A stretch of DNA of 45,982 bases. Origin: Candidatus Thorarchaeota archaeon (GTDB taxonomy: Archaea; Asgardarchaeota; Thorarchaeia; Thorarchaeales; Thorarchaeaceae). The stretch is taken from contig JABCTJ010000093.1 of assembly GCA_018238375.1 (NCBI GenBank), forward strand, positions 1-45,982. The letters run 5' to 3'. This document shows positions 2,616-41,890 of this stretch, piece by piece (positions within the stretch are counted from its first letter, which is position 1; every line of letters starts with the position of its first letter). The notes under the pieces are model-generated. The model was not told the origin of the DNA. It ran no database searches and saw only the letters and a program-made list of their open reading frames with translations. A program made the translations under genes and the position numbers.

Positions 2616-3317
2616 TCAGCGCTTCATTATCAAGACGGGGTTCTCAAGCAGAGGACGTATCGGTTCTTTCACGGTGAAGCTCTCGTCCCCCACGGCCACC
2701 TCAAGTAGCTTTCTCAGCTCGAATCTCCGCAGGTAGCCCACTGCCTCCTCGCGGGGTAGGTTCAGATCCTTCATCAACTTCTTCAGACCACTCTTCTCGC
2801 CACTGTGTTCAGAGAAAGTGGAAAAGACTGTGCTCCATTGCATCATGCTAAGGTACAGCAGTGTTCTTAGCATACTGTCAACGTTTTTGCCAGTCTTAGC
2901 TGAAATTGGAATCACCGGAAGACCTGCTAGGAAGCTCATCTTCTTGCGCAGTTGATTGACTCGTCGAGCCGCTTTTAGATCCTGTTTGTTAGCAGCAACA
3001 ACACATGGAACACCTGGAAGGAAAAACGCTATCTCTCTGAAGAAGAGCTTGGCACGTGCATCAGATTCAGGATCAACAGAGTCAACAACGAATATAATGC
3101 CATCAGCACCCTCACTCAGGATTTTCCTCATTGTCCTAAATCGGAGGAGTCCGGGTGTACCAAACAAGAAGACATTGAGTCCATCAACATTCGCAAGGCC
3201 GTGGTCCATGGCAATGGTTGTACCCCTTCGTTCTATGTTAATGCAGGAACCATCAGTAATGTGATGTATGATCTGGCTCTTGCCTGACCCATATGGCCCC
3301 GTAACGACGATCTTCAT
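2616..3317 (-). CDS. Small GTP-binding protein (COG2229/SRP-receptor-beta-like or Arf-like) with C-terminal extension
   Basis: G1 GPYGSGKS, G3-like FGTPG, G4 ANKQD, G5 ISA. Confidence 0.85.
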   Translation of the reverse strand: MKIVVTGPYGSGKSQIIHHITDGSCINIERRGTTIAMDHGLANVDGLNVFLFGTPGLLRFRTMRKILSEGADGIIFVVDSVDPESDARAKLFFREIAFFLPGVPCVVAANKQDLKAARRVNQLRKKMSFLAGLPVIPISAKTGKNVDSMLRTLLYLSMMQWSTVFSTFSEHSGEKSGLKKLMKDLNLPREEAVGYLRRFELRKLLEVAVGDESFTVKEPIRPLLENPVLIMKR

Positions 3318-8250: not shown

Positions 8251-10002
8251 TCATTCAGAATCCTTTGTGTCCGTTTCATCCATGCTCGCAAGGATCTCGT
8301 CCATCTCATGGATGGCATCACCATCTGGGGGCTCAGCATCCTCGCCCGCCTTTCGCTTGCCAATAGCTCTAGATATCGTCTTCTCAGTTTCGCTGTAGGC
8401 GGCCCAGAGCTCCTTTATCGCGTCATTATCAAAATCCTCAGCTCCTTCAGCCCTTGAGATATCATCTGCATATTCCGCGTCCGTATCAAGATAGCCAAGT
8501 ATCTGATCAAGCTCTTCCACAATGGATATCTCGACACTCTCGGGAGCATCATTCTCACCTTCGACGGGGATAACTTCGTCGGATGATAGTGCTTCAAGAG
8601 CTCCATCCACATCCTCGATGGTTGCCTTGTCCAGCTCGGCGGCGATTATATCATCCGCATCAAGCACATCGGAGAGAAAATCCTTTGCAATCTTCAGGGT
8701 GGTTGTTTCTTGCTCATCAGTCGTCGGAGGTTCGGAAAGAATCTCAACATCAACAGAACTGTCCTCAACTGCACTTGCTGTCTCAGCTGTAGCCACATCA
8801 ACCTCAAAGGCGATAGGCGTTTCAGATGGCTCAGACTCTGATTCAGCGGCGACTGCATCTTCAGGCTCTGTCACAACGGAAACTTCTTCCAGCTCCTCAG
8901 GTGCGCTCACCGACTCTGTAACAATCTCGAATGCATCCGCTGTTGCATCAGCCTCAGCAGGCAAATCCACAGACTCCCCGACATCTTCAATGATCTCATA
9001 ATCGCTAATGTCCTCTATGATTTTACCCGCTTCATCAACGAAGACCTCTTCTATGACCTCCTCATACTCCTCTTCTTCTGCGTATGCCTCGATTACCTTT
9101 GCCTCAGCGGTTTCAGTAAATTGTAGAAGTTCGGATGCGGGCATGTCAGGGAGAACTACGCCGATATATTGAGCTGCCGCTGTCATCAGAATGCTAAGCA
9201 TTTCATCCCGGCGGTTCTCGTCAATGGCTACCATGGGATACGTTGGGACTCCGAGGATTTTCTGCACAACCTCAGGTCTCATTGCATTCGGTAGATCCTG
9301 TTTGTTGGCCAGAGCAAACACGGGAACTTTGGGGGCATCTCGTCTTATCAGCTTGAGAATATCTCTGCTTATGATAACGTTGCGCAGACTTGAGTCGCAA
9401 ACCAGAAAAATTACGTCTGCACCATGGAAGTAGAAACGCCAGAGAGTCCGAAATCTCTCTTGACCTGCAAAGTCCCATAAAACCAGCGAGTAATTTCCAA
9501 ATCTAATATTCTCAACTGTTTCAAGATTGAGCGCGATGGTGGGCACATACTGCAAGGGGGGAGTTTCTCCGAGGAGGAGGTTCAATGTTGTGGTCTTGCC
9601 AGTACCTCCTTCCCCGACCAACGCAATCTTCAGCCGGGTAATGATGCAGGGTTCTATTATTTGCTCGTAGGAATCAATGACTGCTTGGAGACCATCCTTC
9701 TTGAGCTTCCTTCTGAGAGCTTTCGCCGCCGTTTCGAGCTTGTCAGCGATATTGCGTTCATCTTCTCCCTTGTCTGTCACGAAAATCAGAAGCGCGTCTT
9801 CGAGCCAATCATCCGCCATAAATTTCATGTCCCCGACTATCAGGGGCATGTCTGAAACATCGGCACCATGCGTTGTCTTAAGCTCCTCTCTCGTGGATAG
9901 GTACTCCATCAGTTTTTCTTCAGGCACCTCCACTGGCCAGTACTGCGTCGATGCAAGTACCTCTTTTGTCGAAATCCGGACCAGTAGAGTGTTGTGAATC
10001 AT
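8251..10002 (-). CDS. Longin-like N-terminus, Arf-family-like GTPase domain and long acidic tail (583 aa)
   Basis: GTPase motifs GEGGTGKTT, WDFAGQERFRTLW, ANKQD; N-terminal ~120 aa with longin-like strand/helix order; ~250 aa Glu/Asp/Ser-rich C-terminus. Confidence 0.85.
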   Translation of the reverse strand: MIHNTLLVRISTKEVLASTQYWPVEVPEEKLMEYLSTREELKTTHGADVSDMPLIVGDMKFMADDWLEDALLIFVTDKGEDERNIADKLETAAKALRRKLKKDGLQAVIDSYEQIIEPCIITRLKIALVGEGGTGKTTTLNLLLGETPPLQYVPTIALNLETVENIRFGNYSLVLWDFAGQERFRTLWRFYFHGADVIFLVCDSSLRNVIISRDILKLIRRDAPKVPVFALANKQDLPNAMRPEVVQKILGVPTYPMVAIDENRRDEMLSILMTAAAQYIGVVLPDMPASELLQFTETAEAKVIEAYAEEEEYEEVIEEVFVDEAGKIIEDISDYEIIEDVGESVDLPAEADATADAFEIVTESVSAPEELEEVSVVTEPEDAVAAESESEPSETPIAFEVDVATAETASAVEDSSVDVEILSEPPTTDEQETTTLKIAKDFLSDVLDADDIIAAELDKATIEDVDGALEALSSDEVIPVEGENDAPESVEISIVEELDQILGYLDTDAEYADDISRAEGAEDFDNDAIKELWAAYSETEKTISRAIGKRKAGEDAEPPDGDAIHEMDEILASMDETDTKDSE

Positions 10003-18636: not shown

Positions 18637-19176
18637 CTATGTAAGGCTTGCCGCGGCAAGCAGACGGAAGGCCGCCTCAACGTTTAGCCCGCTCAATGCA
18701 CTTGTTTCAAGATATCCATTGAGGCCATTTTCTTCCACAAACTGCTCGCACATCTCAGTTGAAATCACTCGTTCTTCGACAAGATCCACCTTATTCGCAA
18801 GCAAGATAATCGGAATCCTGTGACCCAAGGAACTCTCAGTTTCTTCAATCCATTTTGAAAGGTCTAGGAAGGTGTTCTTCCGGGTTGTGTCAAAGACAAG
18901 CAGTGCTCCCTTCGAGCCCTTGTAGTAACTGCTTCTGATGAAGTCGAATCGCTGTTGACCTGCCAGATCCCAAACAAGAAGCTTCACATTCACGAGGTTC
19001 CCAGTAGTGCTCTCTACGGTTACAGTTTTGACAGCGAACTGGCTGCCAATCGTCACGATGTACTGCTCGGTGAACTTGTGTGTCAGGAAACGGTTGACCA
19101 GTGCAGTCTTGCCGCTGCCCCCAGCGCCAATCAAGACCACCTTGCGCATAAACATTACTTCGCCTGACGATTGCAT
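18637..19176 (-). CDS. Ras/Rab-like small GTPase
   Basis: GAGGSGKTALVNRF, WDLAGQQRFDFIRSSYYKGSKGALLVFD, LANKVD, ETSA. Confidence 0.95.
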   Translation of the reverse strand: MQSSGEVMFMRKVVLIGAGGSGKTALVNRFLTHKFTEQYIVTIGSQFAVKTVTVESTTGNLVNVKLLVWDLAGQQRFDFIRSSYYKGSKGALLVFDTTRKNTFLDLSKWIEETESSLGHRIPIILLANKVDLVEERVISTEMCEQFVEENGLNGYLETSALSGLNVEAAFRLLAAASLT

Positions 19177-26041: not shown

Positions 26042-27112
26042 GTGCCATCAGGGATTGCATTCATTTCTCACCCGAAGTCCATTCTTCATAGACAGCCCTT
26101 TCCAAGGCCGCATCTTGAGTCCTTTGATAGTCCTATCAGAGTTCAGATGGCTGAGAAACATCTGTCAGAGAGAGGTATGCTCCAGACAATGAGTAGAGTG
26201 AAAGCACCCAAGGCGACTCCAGAGGATGCCCTGCTCGTTCATTCTGCATATCTCGTTGACACTGTTGGGTTAATGTCAGATTTGGGCAGCGGGGAGCTTG
26301 GTGAGGGAGCCTATGCAAGTCCGGACCTTCTGGAAACAGCCCTCATAGCGATTGGAGGTTCTATGAAGGCAGCGGAGATTGTGGTGTCAGAAGAAGCTAG
26401 ACACGCATTCGCATTGGTGAGACCTCCGGGGCATCATGCAAGTGTGTCAACACCAATGGGGCTCTGCTACTTCAACAACGTCGCAATCGCAGTGAAACAC
26501 ATCATGAAACGCCACGGTATCAAACGTGTATCAATTCTGGATTTCGACGCCCATCATGGAAATGGCACATCCGAGATATTCTACACGCACCCGGGAGTCC
26601 AGTACATCTCGCTACACGAATATGACTACGAGAACTTCGGATTGGGGCATTACGAGGAGATTGGCTACGGAAAAGGAAAAGGTACAAACATCAACATTCC
26701 CTTGCTTGAAGCGTCTCCTGACGTTTCCTACAAGACGGCAATAGAGAGAGTTGTGCGACCCGTTCTTGAATCCTTCAAGCCCGAAGTTATTGCTGTTTCA
26801 GCAGGCTACGACCCACACTATGCCGACCCTGTTGGCAATATGAATGTCGACAGCTCGACGTTCTGGGAGTTCGGACATGCTGTCAATGAGATTGTAAGTA
26901 CACTTGGAGCAAAGGGATCATTCTGGGTTCTTGAGGGAGGGTATAATCCTCTAGTTCTTGGCCCCTGCATTGAAACAAGCCTCCAAGGGCTACAGGGGAA
27001 GAGAAAAGAGAAACTCGATGATCAAGTTATTCGAGAAGTAGAAGATGAGCTCGTCGACGCCAACAACCAAGTGTTTGACAAAGTCCTAGAAACCCTAGCC
27101 CCCTTCATGTAA
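26042..27112 (+). CDS. Histone deacetylase-family protein
   Basis: LVRPPGHHAS, GLCYFNNVAIAVKH, SILDFDAHHGNGTSEIFY, VSAGYDPHYADP, LEGGYNPLVL. Confidence 0.95.
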   Translation: MPSGIAFISHPKSILHRQPFPRPHLESFDSPIRVQMAEKHLSERGMLQTMSRVKAPKATPEDALLVHSAYLVDTVGLMSDLGSGELGEGAYASPDLLETALIAIGGSMKAAEIVVSEEARHAFALVRPPGHHASVSTPMGLCYFNNVAIAVKHIMKRHGIKRVSILDFDAHHGNGTSEIFYTHPGVQYISLHEYDYENFGLGHYEEIGYGKGKGTNINIPLLEASPDVSYKTAIERVVRPVLESFKPEVIAVSAGYDPHYADPVGNMNVDSSTFWEFGHAVNEIVSTLGAKGSFWVLEGGYNPLVLGPCIETSLQGLQGKRKEKLDDQVIREVEDELVDANNQVFDKVLETLAPFM

Positions 27113-33905: not shown

Positions 33906-34685
33906 CTATACCAGAGCGAAGTTCATCAATGCAGAGTGAGCCCATGACGCTAGAATCATGGGCTTTTCGCGTCCAAACACTCGAATCGTGTTCAGCACTC
34001 CTACAGAGAGAAGATTGCTGATATAGTACGAAACCAGGCTCTTGTCAAGAGACAATGCCCTGCTCAGCTCAGCCTGGGTAACTCGACCATTCTTCATGCA
34101 CTCAAAGAGAATCGAGGCAACCGTCGGATTCCTTGACATAGCTGTCAATCGCAGGACCTGCTCATCGTCGGAGAACTCAGGTAGGAAGAAGTGCCTGGAG
34201 TTGCCGTTCTTGAGAGAGGTTATGTAGCCAGCCTGTTCCAGATGCTTCAGATGATATTGAAGAGCCCCCATAGCGCATCCCAGAGAACGTCGCAGCTCAC
34301 GCAAGTGTATACCAGGGTTGGATGCAATTTCATCAACTATGCGATCTCGCAGCTTCGGTGGGCTTTTCTCATCTCGTCGTGAGATTGATACAGTGCCCGC
34401 AGCGAGAACAAAGATGCAGGATGGAGTGTAGAGTTTAGCAATGACTCCAGGGAGGAGTATAGCTGTCCCGCCGCTCACTGGTGCGGCAAGGATCTGGAAA
34501 TCAATGAATACTACTTCTGAAGATCCAGAGAACGAAAGATCCTGGACCGCAACATCCGGACCGATTGGGATTGAATTGAAGAACAGCATACTAACGACTC
34601 CAGTAAGAACGAGTGATAGAGTCACAGCCAGTACGGCTTTTCTAGTACGGTCTCCCATAATTCTGCCCATCTGGAGTACGCTCAA
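33906..34685 (-). CDS. Membrane-anchored winged-helix (ArsR-like, possibly tandem) transcriptional regulator
   Basis: N-terminal TM segments, then PGIHLRELRRSLGCAMGALQYHLKHLEQAGYI and RVTQAELSRALSLDKSLVSYYISNLLSVGVL. Confidence 0.85.
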   Translation of the reverse strand: MSVLQMGRIMGDRTRKAVLAVTLSLVLTGVVSMLFFNSIPIGPDVAVQDLSFSGSSEVVFIDFQILAAPVSGGTAILLPGVIAKLYTPSCIFVLAAGTVSISRRDEKSPPKLRDRIVDEIASNPGIHLRELRRSLGCAMGALQYHLKHLEQAGYITSLKNGNSRHFFLPEFSDDEQVLRLTAMSRNPTVASILFECMKNGRVTQAELSRALSLDKSLVSYYISNLLSVGVLNTIRVFGREKPMILASWAHSALMNFALV

Positions 34686-34920: not shown

Positions 34921-35466
34921 TTACCCGCGAGCCGGATATGTCATCGTAATTTTGAACGTACATGTTTCGTGGCCTACCGACATGCAGGTGTCCTCGATGA
35001 CATCAAGCTTTTCGAATGTGATCCTATTGAAGTCAATCAAATACTCCAAGACCGCTTCAATGAACCCCTTCAAGAAATGACAGCCAGGTTCAGTGCTCTC
35101 ATATCCTGAGGCATAAGGATTATCTCCAATCTCTATGATTGCCTCCTCGTCCAGCCAGAGCTTGTAGAGCTTAGCAATCCTAACGTCGCCGAACGGTACA
35201 ATGAGCGTTTCAAGTGCAAGCTTAATGAACTCGATAATTCCTTTGAAATCACCTGGAGGCTTCTGTTTCCCCAATTTGAAATACTCACGCTGTGTTTCAA
35301 GACCGGCCAAACGACCTGCGCTATAGTAGAGCGTAGTGGTCTTTTCAGGGAACATAACCATGATTCTACTGCCAAGCTTGTTCCAGGTTTTCGAGAAGAA
35401 GGCTTGCATTAATTGGCGATCTTTCAGCTTACCTTTCCACCATGGGATTACTTCTCTATCGGGCAT
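34921..35466 (-). CDS. V4R-domain protein
   Basis: NPYASGYESTEPGCHFLKGFIEAVLEYLIDFNRITFEKLDVIEDTCMSVGHETCTFKI is a typical V4R C-terminal half. Confidence 0.8.
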   Translation of the reverse strand: MPDREVIPWWKGKLKDRQLMQAFFSKTWNKLGSRIMVMFPEKTTTLYYSAGRLAGLETQREYFKLGKQKPPGDFKGIIEFIKLALETLIVPFGDVRIAKLYKLWLDEEAIIEIGDNPYASGYESTEPGCHFLKGFIEAVLEYLIDFNRITFEKLDVIEDTCMSVGHETCTFKITMTYPARG

Positions 35467-35535
35467 CTGAGTCGCTCCAGTTGGAGTTTATTCTCCGGGG
35501 GTTGTTAAGTGCTTTGCGCTGATGTAACTGTAAGA

Positions 35536-36012
35536 TCACCATACAAGACGTACATTCCAAGTACAGGCATCAGCCCCGGTAGCACGACACAGCTCCTGAA
35601 AAACCTTGGACTCTACGCCCTTGAACTCAAGAATAGATTCGAGAATGCCACTGAAGATTTCACAGTAGCCGAAGCCGCGCATCCCCTCGAGATGCACATC
35701 TTGGCACCACAAGCAGTCTTTGTCAGTTACACGAACAGAACCACGAGCCGTTTCCATGTCTACAGAGGAAGGCTTCCTGTTGAAGAGACTCTTGAATACA
35801 ACATCCATCAGCTTAGCGACATCTTCCCTAGTGGCTATAGTGTCCTTTGTCTTGTCGACTATCTCAGTGGTGAGGTACACCTGTGAACCAATCTCACGAC
35901 CAAGGTCACGCAAGCGCTGATTTGCATCTTCAATGCTAGCCGTACTGGATAGTATTTCTTCGACATATTTTGAATATAGGGTGAGAAGTAAGGGATTCTG
36001 TATCTTCGCCAT
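35536..36012 (-). CDS. Bet3/TRAPP-like (V4R superfamily) protein
   Basis: LLTLYSKYVEEILSSTASIEDANQRLRDLGREIGSQVYLTTEIV...REDVAKLMDVVFKSLFNRKP...YCEIFSGILESILEFKGVESKVFQELCRATGADACTWNVRLVW follows Bet3 order. Confidence 0.75.
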   Translation of the reverse strand: MAKIQNPLLLTLYSKYVEEILSSTASIEDANQRLRDLGREIGSQVYLTTEIVDKTKDTIATREDVAKLMDVVFKSLFNRKPSSVDMETARGSVRVTDKDCLWCQDVHLEGMRGFGYCEIFSGILESILEFKGVESKVFQELCRATGADACTWNVRLVW

Positions 36013-36040
36013 TGAACTCTGACCTCGGATGGTTAGTCAC

Positions 36041-37036
36041 TTACACTGTCTTTCCAATCATCTTGAGACCGTGCTTCCTGTAAAGTGCAACGGTCTGAAT
36101 GACCTTAACGTTTGGGACACCCAGAAGGTCTGCAATCGCGTCCGTCGTCTGTGTGCCGTCACATGCAGCAATAATGCGTCTATCTTCCGGCTTAACCTTG
36201 TCAGGAGAACCTTCGTACTTGGGGCACTTCACAAAGCGGCCAAGAGTTGTTTCCGTTTTCTTGACCTTGCCTGTTTCAATTGGAACATTGACTATTCCCT
36301 TGGACGCCGCCCACATCAACAGCTCCGCTACGCGCTCATTGGATTGGAACATCGAATCTGCAATCCGTTCCACGTTTTGTGCATCATCAACAAGCATCAG
36401 CACGTCAAACCCGAAGTTTCGGTGTTTCTTCTTCATCTCCATGTACAGCTCTGAGTCAAGGGTTAGGGCCGCTGCGTATGTTTCACCGCGCTTCGGAACT
36501 GTGGAAGGTTGAACTGCAAAATCTTCTGGTGACCTTTCGATGACTGGTGCAGGTGCTGCGGACACTGCTGGTGATGCCACTGCTGTCTTTGGTGTTTCGA
36601 CAGGCAACCCATTGGAAGAAGGCACCGGGGAAGTGGATGCTGCATTGATTGCCATAGTTTCTAGTACTTGGAGGTTCCCCTCCACAGAGTCCTCGAACTC
36701 GTCAGGTGGCGGAGGTAGTTCAATACCTTCTAGCATGCGCAATACGTTTTTCGTCTTTGCTATCGCTAAGCCCAATTGCAATTCAGGAACATAGAGAACC
36801 GTTAGTATCCAGTTTACGTCTACTGGTGACAGGACCACTAAGCCCTTCTCAGTATCTATTGTCATAAGGCGTAGATCGGACTTGTAGAGACTGATACTAT
36901 CCCTCACGCGGGGAAACAGTTCATCAGGAAACGAGAAGCTGACAAAGGGCCGTCCGTTCTTGGTCATCAATGAGTAACCCAATACTTGGTCATCAAATCT
37001 GAGCTTTGATAGAGATCGTTCCAGATCGGTCGTCAT
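36041..37036 (-). CDS. Roadblock/LC7-like N-terminal domain, Pro/Ala-rich linker and C-terminal winged-helix-like domain
   Basis: MTTDLERSLSKLRFDDQVLGYSLMTKNGRPFVSFSFPDELFPRVRDSISLYKSDLRLMTIDTEKGLVVLSPVDVNWILTVLY; linker PPPPDEFED...; C-term DGTQTTDAIADLLGV. Longer track start (37084) also possible. Confidence 0.7.
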   Translation of the reverse strand: MTTDLERSLSKLRFDDQVLGYSLMTKNGRPFVSFSFPDELFPRVRDSISLYKSDLRLMTIDTEKGLVVLSPVDVNWILTVLYVPELQLGLAIAKTKNVLRMLEGIELPPPPDEFEDSVEGNLQVLETMAINAASTSPVPSSNGLPVETPKTAVASPAVSAAPAPVIERSPEDFAVQPSTVPKRGETYAAALTLDSELYMEMKKKHRNFGFDVLMLVDDAQNVERIADSMFQSNERVAELLMWAASKGIVNVPIETGKVKKTETTLGRFVKCPKYEGSPDKVKPEDRRIIAACDGTQTTDAIADLLGVPNVKVIQTVALYRKHGLKMIGKTV

Positions 37037-37362
37037 TCTGGTGCACCTTGCAATTTCAATCTGCACTCGGTCCCGCGTGTGCACACTTCTTTCTCAGAGT
37101 GTTCTGAAAAGCATTGCGGTATCATACTCGATGAAGGGGGGTCTGAGTGGCTCAAACGAAACTGACTAGGACTCCATTCTTGGTTCAAAGACAACCTAGC
37201 GGTACGAGAACGTGCATGGGTGGTCGAAGATGTGCACTAGTTGCTCCTACTGGGCTGAACAAATGGCCAAACATTCAAAGCGCTGAATCAGTCCACTATT
37301 GTCAAGCCCAAAACGATTAAGACTCGAACCGACATTCTCAGGACTGTGGAAAAGGAAAAGGA

Positions 37363-37950
37363 TTGACAAGAATGCGGAATATTATCGGAGGTTTGGTTGG
37401 TGCACTGGTTGGTTCAAGCATGATTGCCATCCTGCTGGCCTTGCTTCCAACCGAGTATCCATCACCATTCGGTCTATTCTGGATAGCCTTCAGCGGCAGT
37501 GATTCGCTTCTAGATTCTGCAACCGGCTTGCTCAGTTCAACCACTTGGATATTGTACGTCATGACGTGGATTGCGATTGGGCTCGTAACTGCTCCGTTCG
37601 CTAAATCGGAATGGAATGCTGTGCGAACCGCCCTTTGGGTCGGTGTGTTCCTCTCCATATTCGCTGTTTCATCCGCTCTGCTCTTGGATCCCTCGCTGTG
37701 GACACTTGATAGAGATGCGAGAAACATCTACCTCATTCTGCAGTTTGCCACTGGAATCGCTTATTCGCTACTGGCCCTAGTCAGCTCGATACCATTAGCA
37801 ATACTGCTCCAGAAAGTAAGAAGAGAGTCTGATGTGCCACCTCCAATCAAGATTGAAACTATATGTGAGTGTGGAGCGGTCTTCAAATCTGCTCCGCTCA
37901 TGTGTGCGGAGTGTGGACAGATTCTCAGAAATGAGCCTGAAGCAGTTTGA
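37363..37950 (+). CDS. Membrane protein with C-terminal zinc ribbon
   Basis: About 4 TM segments then CECGAVFKSAPLMCAECGQIL. Confidence 0.75.
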   Translation: MTRMRNIIGGLVGALVGSSMIAILLALLPTEYPSPFGLFWIAFSGSDSLLDSATGLLSSTTWILYVMTWIAIGLVTAPFAKSEWNAVRTALWVGVFLSIFAVSSALLLDPSLWTLDRDARNIYLILQFATGIAYSLLALVSSIPLAILLQKVRRESDVPPPIKIETICECGAVFKSAPLMCAECGQILRNEPEAV

Positions 37951-37964
37951 TTAAAGTGCGACGC

Positions 37965-38480
37965 CTAACGCTCCCTGCTGATTCCTCCGCCGAGAAGGCC
38001 CCCAAAACCTGTTGCTATAGCGGGATACAACGTGCCAGTGAGCACTCTCTGAAGGAGTAGCATGGATTCGGCACCAGCAATCTGTGTGAAGTCTGGTACT
38101 TGGACAAAGAAGACCAACAGCCAAATCAAGAAAGCCCCTATGATAGCTGAGAACAATGCTGAAAGAACTCCAGGCAGTATGTCCTTAGACAGAAGACCAG
38201 CAATGAGACCACCCAGCCCCCAGGTTAGAAACATCAAGACCGGCACTTCCTGCGCGCCATACGTCAGACCGACTCCCAATTCAGAGGGGTAGAGCACAGT
38301 TCCCATAACAACCAGCTTGAGCTCCAAATCAGTAAATGTCAGAAAGTCATTAATGATTCGCGGGTCGACTACATCCGGGGGAATGAACAGACCGAATGTT
38401 AGTATCACGAATGTAACCGTGAAAGTGACTACTAGGCCCACGAGCGTGCCAAGACCTTGTCCCAAAATGATTTCCTCCAT
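37965..38480 (-). CDS. Multi-TM membrane protein
   Basis: 171 aa, about 4 TM segments, Gly-rich. Confidence 0.65.
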   Translation of the reverse strand: MEEIILGQGLGTLVGLVVTFTVTFVILTFGLFIPPDVVDPRIINDFLTFTDLELKLVVMGTVLYPSELGVGLTYGAQEVPVLMFLTWGLGGLIAGLLSKDILPGVLSALFSAIIGAFLIWLLVFFVQVPDFTQIAGAESMLLLQRVLTGTLYPAIATGFGGLLGGGISRER

Positions 38481-38521: not shown

Positions 38522-39208
38522 ATGCCTATTCTATGCGGGCATAGACTGTGTGATTCAACCTTGAACAAGATTGTGGACCTTACATTACCGCTCTATGCCA
38601 ATGTGCCAGTCAGACCGGGCGACCCCGGAGTCGTCATGGGCGATCTCGCAGATATCGCCACTGAGGGGTACCGTTTGACTCATCTCTCAATGAGCACTCA
38701 CACTGGCACTCACGTAGACGCGCCTTCGCACATCATCGAATCGGGGGATACTCTGAACAACATCAGTTTCGATGTACTAGTAGGGCCATGTAGCCTTGTG
38801 AATGTGGCAGGCGAACCTGAGTCTTCTATTACGCTAGACGACCTCATTATTCACAAAGAAGCTATCAGAGGCGCAGGTCGTGTCGTTCTCAAATCGGGTT
38901 GGGCGAAACGGTGGGGCACGCCGGAGTACTACCACAATTCACCATCCATCACCATAGAGGCTGCTAGATGGCTTGCAGGAAAAGATGTACATGTGAAGCT
39001 AGTTGGCTTCGACATGCCTACACCATCAGTGAAGCAAGAAATTGACATCCATAAAGTGTTTCTCGAAGCGGGCATTCCTATAGTGGAATGTCTGAATCTT
39101 GAGAACCTGACTCAATCTCACTTCGAGATAGTGGTAGCCCCACTCCCGCTGCGTAACCGAGAAGGCGCCCCGTGTAGAGTGCTTGGTCTGCTCAATTCGT
39201 TTTCTTAA
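38522..39208 (+). CDS. Cyclase family protein (kynurenine formamidase-like); start uncertain
   Basis: VDLTLPLYANVPVRPGDPG, STHTGTHVDAPSHI, RVVLKSGWAKRWG, LVGFDMPTPS. Confidence 0.9.
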   Translation: MPILCGHRLCDSTLNKIVDLTLPLYANVPVRPGDPGVVMGDLADIATEGYRLTHLSMSTHTGTHVDAPSHIIESGDTLNNISFDVLVGPCSLVNVAGEPESSITLDDLIIHKEAIRGAGRVVLKSGWAKRWGTPEYYHNSPSITIEAARWLAGKDVHVKLVGFDMPTPSVKQEIDIHKVFLEAGIPIVECLNLENLTQSHFEIVVAPLPLRNREGAPCRVLGLLNSFS

Positions 39209-39265
39209 TGGCTCAGGTGCTATCTACATCACCTAGAGCCTTGCAGGATTTTTTGTAAGACTCGC

Positions 39266-39300
39266 CATTGAATCCTCTGAGATTCAATGCCCCTTTTTTT
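39266..39300 (+). terminator. Hairpin plus poly-T terminator-like element after the cyclase gene
   Basis: CATTGAATC-CTCTGA-GATTCAATG then CCCCTTTTTTT; 9-bp perfect stem followed by T7. Confidence 0.6.
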
Positions 39301-39317
39301 CACTCCATATGATGACG

Positions 39318-40247
39318 CTATTCTCTTGTTTTTCTAATCATTCTGAGGTTATTGCCGCGATAAGGTACAATGCACTGTAGAGCATTGAAATGCAGTATGC
39401 CGAGTTTTTCTGCAATCTCATAGACTGTTCGTGTGCCGTCACAAAGCTCAAGAACATCTCTGTGCTTCTTCTTTGCCTTCTTGATTTTCCCCTCGAATAG
39501 GGGCAGTTCAATAATCTCTCTGGCACTGGTTTCCTGTTCCTCTGGGCACTCAACATCCACGACACCCTTTTGCAGACACCACTGAGCAACCTCAAGCACA
39601 TGCTCAACTCGCCTTGACAGGATATCTGCAATCTCGACAACCGTGCGCTTCTTGTCCACCATAAGAAGGATATCCACTCCTACATTGGCAAACTGCTTCT
39701 TGAATTCAATATTCAGAGCTGAGTCAATCATGAATGCATCAGAGTACACAACTCCGGGTAGTACAACACAACCATATCGGACTATGGTGTCAGAGGGAAT
39801 CCACTCCTCAGCTTTCACCATCACAACTGGTTGTGGGTTCTCCTCAACAGCAGGACTGATAGCTGCTGAAGTCCCTGAGCCGACTTCCGATACAACCGAA
39901 ATCGGATGTTCAATGGGCGCTGGTGGAGGCGGTAGCGTGACGTCCTCAAGAAGTCGTGCCACATTCTTAACCTTCTGGAGCGCACTACCAAGTGACTCCG
40001 CGGGTTCGAAAAGAACGCCAAGGATCCATTCCGGGTCCACTCGAGCCAGAATCACTGTGCCTGCATCAGTTATGATATTCATGAGGCGAAGAGATGATTC
40101 ATGGATTTGGAGAGCGCCCTGAATCGGAGGAAGAGCCTCATCAGGCAAGGAGAAGGACAGAAATGGCTGACCATCATTTGTAATCAGCGCATAACCACTG
40201 ACAGACTCGTCATACCTAAGTTTAGTAAGCACACGCTCAAGTTTCAA
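39318..40247 (-). CDS. Roadblock/LC7-like protein with C-terminal winged-helix-like domain; paralogue of 36041..37036
   Basis: KLERVLTKLRYDESVSGYALITNDGQPFLSFSLPDEALPPIQGALQIHESSLRLMNI...LEDVTLPPPPAP; DGTRTVYEIAEKLGI; colinear with 36041 paralogue. Confidence 0.7.
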   Translation of the reverse strand: MKLERVLTKLRYDESVSGYALITNDGQPFLSFSLPDEALPPIQGALQIHESSLRLMNIITDAGTVILARVDPEWILGVLFEPAESLGSALQKVKNVARLLEDVTLPPPPAPIEHPISVVSEVGSGTSAAISPAVEENPQPVVMVKAEEWIPSDTIVRYGCVVLPGVVYSDAFMIDSALNIEFKKQFANVGVDILLMVDKKRTVVEIADILSRRVEHVLEVAQWCLQKGVVDVECPEEQETSAREIIELPLFEGKIKKAKKKHRDVLELCDGTRTVYEIAEKLGILHFNALQCIVPYRGNNLRMIRKTRE

Positions 40248-41434: not shown

Positions 41435-41890
41435 TTAAATCTTCTTCAGTGCAGCCTTGACCATCGCTGTGACCCTGTCCTCGTCAATCCCTGTCTTCTT
41501 GGCCACTTTAGTAATTTCACAGTATGCGAGGTCGGACATATTCATTATGCCGATTTCTACGAGCTGCTTTGCTTCGACCTTCTTAACCGCCCTGAGTGAA
41601 AAGAGCTCATCGATTGCTTTGTCTAATCCCTTCACAGGCTTAGGCTTCGAAACCGTGGCTGCAATCTTCTTCAAGTCTTTAGCGTACTGCTTGAGCGCAT
41701 CGATGTTCTCCTGATGGGTTGTCTTTCTGCGAAGGTCCACAATTAGACCCATCCTTCGCGCCTCAGCAATTGTCAGGCCTGCTTGTTTTGCCTCGTCTAT
41801 ACTGAATCCACGACCTATCTTTGGACGTGCATCTCTTGGGGATTTCACAACAGGCTCAGCAAAGGTATCAAAACTCATGGACTGTTTCAC
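41435..41890 (-). CDS. Ribosomal protein eL13 with C-terminal helical/HhH-like extension
   Basis: GRGFSIDEAKQAGLTIAEARRMGLIVDLRRKTTHQENIDALKQYAKDLKKI matches the L13e core; extension KKVEAKQLVEIGIMNMSDLAYCEITKVAKKTGIDEDRVTAMVKAALKKI. Confidence 0.85.
   Translation of the reverse strand: MKQSMSFDTFAEPVVKSPRDARPKIGRGFSIDEAKQAGLTIAEARRMGLIVDLRRKTTHQENIDALKQYAKDLKKIAATVSKPKPVKGLDKAIDELFSLRAVKKVEAKQLVEIGIMNMSDLAYCEITKVAKKTGIDEDRVTAMVKAALKKI

Follow-up and report, generated by a model that had tools for sequence, protein, structure and literature searches.

Three adjacent genes in a stretch of 45,982 nucleotides (the window) from a 2.5-Mb Thorarchaeal genome encode a Roadblock protein with two winged helices (RblA), a TRAPPC3-like protein (TRAPP1) and a V4R protein, and TRAPP genes stand beside a related winged-helix gene in nine Asgard families. 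We see an even chance that the operon specifies one complex that serves as a platform for a Rab- or Rag-like GTPase and is related to the source material of TRAPP, perhaps also of GATOR1. That the three products assemble physically is probable in our judgement, while their putative part in GTPase regulation is about as likely to hold as to fail. The features on which this reading is based are listed in the table.

Table. Features of the operon and of its duplicated counterpart, with window positions and the basis of each assignment.
Feature	Position	Strand	Basis or remark
RblA	36041..37084	minus	AlphaFold, Foldseek, TRAPP1 synteny
Roadblock domain of RblA	residues 1-104 counted from ATG 37036		AlphaFold topology
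TRAPP1	35536..36012	minus	PF04051, PDB 7yh2/7yh3 match, invariant cysteines
V4R protein	34921..35466	minus	PF02830, AlphaFold, Foldseek, TRAPP1 synteny
HTH regulator gene	33906..34685	minus	next downstream of V4R; syntenic in Thorarchaea
RblB	39318..40247	minus	RblA paralogue; adjoins TRAPP2 in other Thorarchaea
TRAPP2 remnant	39195..39296	minus	tblastn, 59% identity to TRAPP2 C-terminus

The three reading frames are separated by gaps of 28 bp (RblA/TRAPP1) and 69 bp (TRAPP1/V4R), exactly as the earlier note on this DNA had stated. Comparison with two congeners gave Ka/Ks values of 0.07-0.15 for RblA, TRAPP1 and V4R, indicating that all three are maintained proteins under purifying selection. 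RblA probably starts later than the GTG at 37084, since homologues align from the ATG at 37036 (MTTDLER...). RblA lies directly 5' and the V4R gene directly 3' of TRAPP1 in 35/35 Thorarchaeal genomes whose contigs were long enough to check, so that the gene order is not peculiar to this contig, as it would have had to be for the earlier note to see its module refuted; relatives of the operon in other Asgard families lead to the same conclusion. With local variations, Thorarchaeal loci read L13e-PfkB-RblB-TRAPP2-(two unannotated genes)-RblA-TRAPP1-V4R-HTH-ABC-FtsX-LysRS-phosphatidyltransferase. In Thorarchaea synteny extends over about 40 kb around the operon and takes in LysRS, a Ras GTPase and a histone-deacetylase-like gene; the last two and an M42 peptidase gene lie up to about 20 kb away. 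We therefore rejected Thorarchaeal synteny by itself as proof of operon function, and the argument rests on the other Asgard families. Within this conserved neighbourhood, the histone-deacetylase-family gene (26042-27112, plus strand; PF00850, E 3e-77) is syntenic across Thorarchaea, and the L13e-like ribosomal protein (41435-41890, minus strand) has a C-terminus with a weak match to the RadA/NusA type (helix-hairpin-helix).

TRAPP1 scored 38.5 bits against the TRAPP profile PF04051 (cut-off 27), which had no match in 14 control genomes, and a single-sequence search against the PDB returned 7yh2 (E 1.2e-77) and 7yh3 (E 5.7e-77), which makes it an ortholog of 'Thor-TRAPPC3', the protein whose crystal structures these are (Tran et al. 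2024, PMC10933270). Its cysteines C100, C103, C117 and C150, equivalent to the four that coordinate zinc in that structure (PMC10933270), are invariant in Thorarchaea, and two of the loci analysed (L111 and L112) come from the same organisms, SMTZ1-45 and AB25. In PMC10933270 the protein is treated alone, as a homodimer, without mention of an Rbl-TRAPP-V4R operon. In a profile comparison the Asgard TRAPP profile reached eukaryotic TRAPPC3/BET3 (E 1e-19 to 1e-14), TRAPPC6 (4e-10) and TRAPPC5 (3e-9), with neither PoxR nor MopR among the matches. The V4R protein scored 39.5 bits against PF02830 (cut-off 31), and its profile had the archaeal V4R protein MJ1460 (E 0.008) as the sole match of any strength. 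Since the two profiles diverge, one towards TRAPPC3 and the other towards MJ1460, the pair consists of one TRAPP-like and one V4R-like member, and the earlier descriptions of a Bet3/TRAPPC3-like and a canonical V4R protein were both upheld. The refuting outcome named in the earlier note, with both proteins falling among bacterial sensory V4R domains, did not occur: TRAPP1 went to TRAPPC3, and profiles took the V4R protein only to an archaeal V4R. AlphaFold assigned the V4R protein the topology a-a-a-b-b-a-b-b, the TRAPP/V4R fold, and Foldseek listed MopR first and also PoxR and TRAPPC3; the predicted fold is intermediate between MopR/PoxR and TRAPPC3. An MsvR-type combination of V4R and HTH in one protein was absent from the loci examined, where the two are found on separate proteins; matches to MsvR reached 18.6 and 21.4 bits against a cut-off of 220 bits, and those to MetOD1, alongside them, were likewise weak.

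RblA was modelled by AlphaFold from 38 homologues (overall pLDDT 82.7, pTM 0.39) as an N-terminal domain followed by a proline-rich, acidic and disordered linker and two winged-helix domains. The N-terminal domain, a helix-two strands-helix-three strands-helix arrangement with a pLDDT of about 90, matched solved Roadblocks in Foldseek (E 7e-6, target TM about 0.66-0.73), among them a Thorarchaeal one (7f8m) and 6izw. RblA had no Pfam match to Roadblock/LC7 (PF03259) at E<=1, Pfam and NCBIfam run on RblA alone gave neither a Roadblock nor an NPR2 match, a homologue reached 0.18 with PF03259, and RblA and RblB are absent from the PF03259 matches of the genome; the Roadblock assignment therefore rests on structure. 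Alignment with a Loki roadblock by hhalign was weak (probability 25%, E 8e-4), and the partner alignment A2, searched as a profile against the PDB, returned winged-helix and PqqD chains and one roadblock, the other matches being at chance level. Of the earlier description as a Roadblock protein with a winged-helix C-terminus, the Roadblock thus stands, by structure and not by Pfam, while the single winged helix has become two. The best Foldseek matches overall were full-length ones to KICSTOR-GATOR1 and SEA structures (E 4.4e-7 to 2.6e-5), in which, judging from entry and chain length, we take the matched chains to be NPRL2-type subunits. Over the full length the TM-score was only about 0.2, because the RblA domains have no fixed mutual orientation, and none of the 232 genomes of the phylum had an NPR2 (PF06218) match over the cut-off. 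NPRL2-type subunits consist of a longin N-lobe, a linker and a C-lobe (PMC9646525, PMC8534245), and the model suggests that RblA is built like NPRL2, a resemblance of build rather than demonstrated family membership. The terminal winged helix is of the HTH_47/PqqD type and basic, with a pI of about 9-10 in most members.

The unit is also duplicated. RblB is 38-40% identical to RblA, while TRAPP2 and TRAPP1 share about 25% identity. All that is left of TRAPP2 in the window species is its last ~34 codons, with stops. Of three congeners, one (G226) carries TRAPP2 with a single in-frame stop, one (G230) a short remnant similar to that of the window species and one (G225) a copy that is intact up to the contig end. 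RblB is under selection (Ka/Ks 0.21-0.24), which is looser than that on RblA, TRAPP1 and V4R. Judged from these comparisons, RblB would be the former partner of TRAPP2 in the window species, and the genus appears to be losing TRAPP2 but keeping RblB. The three-gene operon of the earlier note is real, but its second winged helix, NPRL2-like architecture and duplicated module had gone unrecognised. The TRAPP2 remnant is flanked by a cyclase-family gene (38522-39208) on one side and by RblB on the other. In the interval that separates the two Rbl-TRAPP units, Thorarchaea keep two unannotated genes (37363-37950, plus strand; 37965-38480, minus strand), the products of which look membrane-embedded by sequence. 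Across Asgard phyla TRAPP2 starts with MG[IV]KG..., a conserved, basic and tryptophan-containing N-terminus (L099, L101, L103, L126, L128 and others) that could be a membrane-inserting segment; this type of N-terminus is absent from Thorarchaeal TRAPP1.

Considering that synteny among Thorarchaea is weak evidence, we turn to the other Asgard families. The A1 profile of Asgard TRAPP-fold proteins has members in 210/232 genomes of the phylum, and in nine families a TRAPP gene is adjoined by a partner gene that combines a Roadblock, longin or CxxC-bearing N-terminus with a conserved C-terminal winged helix (Thor, f2, f4 (Baldr), f12 (Hermod), f14, f17 (L140), f24, f25 (Njord) and f27 (Borr)). A winged-helix profile had 18 matches among 441 ORFs, each with E<1e-12 and each next to a TRAPP gene, and nothing else was better than 0.037; several of these proteins had served to train the profile, which therefore tests position, not recall. 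An independent scan with the TRAPP2 N-terminal pattern alone found 32 loci (Thor, Hermod, Borr, Baldr and Njord), and the partner was directly upstream in 32/32. About 12 partner-type genes elsewhere are unlinked to TRAPP, and no winged-helix gene is linked to the TRAPP pairs of Loki, f3, f13 and some other families. The winged helices of Thor and Borr are related (hhalign, 95%, 1.8e-8), and the partner keeps this domain throughout, whereas its N-terminus varies. In Hermodarchaeota and f24 a CxxC-bearing domain takes the place of Roadblock or longin (L054:7087-7566, L133:2789-3301, L139:5646-6182), so that the N-terminal domain is exchangeable.

Phylogenetic trees join Thorarchaeal TRAPP1 to the genes that stand first in the TRAPP pairs of f17 and f20 (96/87), and the V4R protein to those that stand second (97/89), the latter in agreement with another tree; long branches meet in both groups. 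Family f20 is taken to be Loki from the composition of its genomes and the pattern published for Loki. As both span Thor, the inferred Loki family and f17, the TRAPP1-V4R pair appears to be old. One Loki protein of 490 aa that had been considered unrelated groups with Thorarchaeal V4R (97/89), and that view was rejected. In f17 (L140) TRAPP1, V4R and an Rbl/winged-helix gene form one run, the same three families as in the Thorarchaeal operon in another order. Eukaryotic TRAPPC3 changes its place among the Asgard clades between two trees in which long branches meet, and PDB profile searches with two tandem TRAPPs of Borrarchaeum did not separate a TRAPPC3 type from a C5/C6 type. Two fusions dispense with the winged helix: L058 has a longin fused to TRAPP, and this longin has an unfused relative in the longin-winged-helix protein encoded next to TRAPP2 in Borrarchaeum L060, and L147 has a longin-like N-terminus fused to V4R. 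Longin assignments in general have weak Pfam scores (0.0015-0.09), sybindin matches are weak as well (Borrarchaeum 0.028, f29 0.045), and a longin-TRAPPC3 fusion from Heimdall has already been published (PMC10933270). A 496-aa protein of family f10 (L148:4127-5617) joins an N-terminal thioredoxin to two V4R stretches.

The three GTPases reported earlier for the window were recovered as Ras matches at 18652-19143, 9286-9630 and 2856-3314. The operon itself contains no GTPase gene, and about 16 kb separate it from the nearest Ras gene. The corresponding genes (2616-3317, 8251-10002 and 18637-19176, minus strand) are 3 of about 20 Ras-family matches in the genome, above the share of a 46-kb window, and the 18637 GTPase is syntenic in 9/10 Thorarchaeal genomes checked. 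In Borrarchaeum two or three tandem Ras-family GTPases, a longin-winged-helix gene and TRAPP2 follow one another on one strand (L060:4744-8364, L086:3281-6281), a possible GTPase and proto-TRAPP operon; its longin-winged-helix gene in L060 has weak sybindin similarity. In f17 (L088) a GTPase with a weakly folliculin-like N-terminus is two genes from a TRAPP-V4R pair. According to PMC10933270, the GTPase genes of MK-D1 do not as a rule share operons with genes for RB, longin or TRAPPC3, a statement that the Borrarchaeum cluster qualifies.

In the mechanism that we propose, RblA would dimerise through its Roadblock domain and present a GTPase-binding face such as is known in MglB, TRAPPC1/C4 and NPRL2/NPRL3. 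TRAPP1 and V4R would contact each other by their N-terminal helices, in the manner of TRAPPC3 with TRAPPC5/C6, and the pair would dock on the RblA dimer, where their hydrophobic cavities may bind lipid or a small ligand and so tether or gate the platform. RblB and TRAPP2 would be a second copy of the unit, half of which has been lost in the window species. The earlier proposal of a GTPase-regulatory module related to TRAPP is strengthened in its relation to TRAPP, by the profile match to TRAPPC3, the association across families and the fusions, while control of a GTPase stays putative and finds its best support outside Thorarchaea, because in Borrarchaeum three Ras-family GTPases are directly upstream of the longin-winged-helix/TRAPP pair. 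The fold matches of RblA to NPRL2-type GATOR1/SEA chains and the TRAPP profile reaching TRAPPC3, C6 and C5 count for a platform. Counted against it are the lack of a GTPase gene in the Thorarchaeal operon, the TRAPP pairs and partner-type genes that occur unlinked to one another, the weak longin scores, the basic terminal winged helix, as in DNA-binding proteins, the diffuse distribution of tested Asgard proteins in HeLa cells and the crystallisation of Thor-TRAPPC3 as a homodimer (PMC10933270).

The operon might instead encode a ligand-responsive transcription regulator, in which V4R and TRAPP sense a small molecule, as the V4R domains of PoxR, MopR and MsvR do, the winged helices of RblA bind DNA and the Roadblock merely dimerises. 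We regard this main rival as rather unlikely, even though the operon holds a canonical V4R protein whose fold matches MopR first, MsvR and MetOD1 give weak matches, and HTH regulator and ABC/FtsX genes come next in Thorarchaea. The winged helix, too, is the part of the partner that stays constant beside a variable N-terminus, and its type and charge are compatible with DNA binding, which they do not prove. Against such a regulator speak the TRAPP1 profile, which leads to TRAPPC3 and not to PoxR/MopR, the repeated occurrence of Roadblock or longin, both GTPase-platform folds, at the partner's N-terminus, the fusions in which a longin joins TRAPP or V4R and no winged helix is present, and the GTPases that precede the pair in Borrarchaeum. 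In PoxR, MopR, DmpR and MsvR, the V4R fold and HTH also recall the third gene and the winged helix of the operon, but here they are on separate proteins and a TRAPPC3-like partner is added.

Alternatively, RblA and RblB could correspond to NPRL2 and NPRL3 in an archaeal GATOR1-like unit that serves nutrient sensing as a GAP for Rag-like GTPases, with the TRAPP proteins as accessories, a second rival that we hold to be improbable. NPRL2-type chains are indeed the top full-length matches of RblA, the predicted layout recalls their dimerising longin/roadblock-type N-lobe, linker and C-lobe, and two neighbouring paralogues mirror NPRL2 and NPRL3 of GATOR1/SEACIT; however, PF06218 is without a match over its cut-off anywhere in the phylum, TM-scores are low for want of a fixed domain arrangement, RblA has a Roadblock in place of a longin, partners in other families carry a single winged helix, and RblA and RblB are associated with TRAPP genes instead. 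Least credible is that conserved Thorarchaeal gene order sets unrelated genes side by side with no functional unit at all. The long syntenic block, with LysRS, the histone-deacetylase-like gene and the Ras GTPase in it, would accommodate this, but the same families adjoin in eight other Asgard families with differing surroundings and two fusions occur, which largely refutes it.

The eukaryotic TRAPP core comprises the longins TRAPPC1/C4, C3 and C5/C6 (PMC10152722), and the Thorarchaeal operon resembles half of this two-fold core, with a TRAPPC3-like subunit, a second protein of the same fold and an adjacent roadblock/longin platform gene; in contrast to the core, a Roadblock with winged helices stands where the bare longin stands, the second subunit is V4R and not C5/C6, and the longin (sybindin) heterodimer at the centre of eukaryotic-type TRAPP is lacking, the Thorarchaeal partner being a Roadblock. 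With MglA/MglB the operon would share a Roadblock homodimer as GTPase platform, 6izw being among the fold matches of RblA, yet it has no adjacent GTPase gene and adds winged helices and TRAPP/V4R proteins. More speculatively, and with considerable doubt on our part, a proto-TRAPP in which the TRAPP1/V4R heteropair and a roadblock/longin-winged-helix platform make up a single complex and exchange nucleotide on a dedicated Rab-like GTPase, encoded next door in Borrarchaeum, might have given rise by duplication to both the TRAPP core and NPRL2/3 of GATOR1, the symmetric eukaryotic core being two halves.

TRAPPC3-like proteins in Thorarchaea, roadblocks in Asgard archaea and one longin-TRAPPC3 fusion were known before (PMC10933270), and an 'NPRL2-like longin domain' category exists in Asgard annotation (PMC9834061). 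In the open-access articles searched, we came upon no account of the operon, of its duplication, of the winged-helix partner or of the conservation of the TRAPP1-V4R pair. Previous work has dealt with the TRAPP, Roadblock and longin proteins of Asgard archaea singly, with published doubt that genome layout matches them up. The origin of the Rab-GEF complexes of the eukaryotic endomembrane system is a long-standing question. The recurrent association names partners, RblA with TRAPP1 and V4R in Thorarchaea and the longin-winged-helix protein with TRAPP2 and three GTPases in Borrarchaeum, and thereby makes complex formation, exchange activity and DNA binding directly testable on about eight small proteins. 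It points to a putative ancestral module for GTPase control that could have supplied the components of eukaryotic TRAPP.
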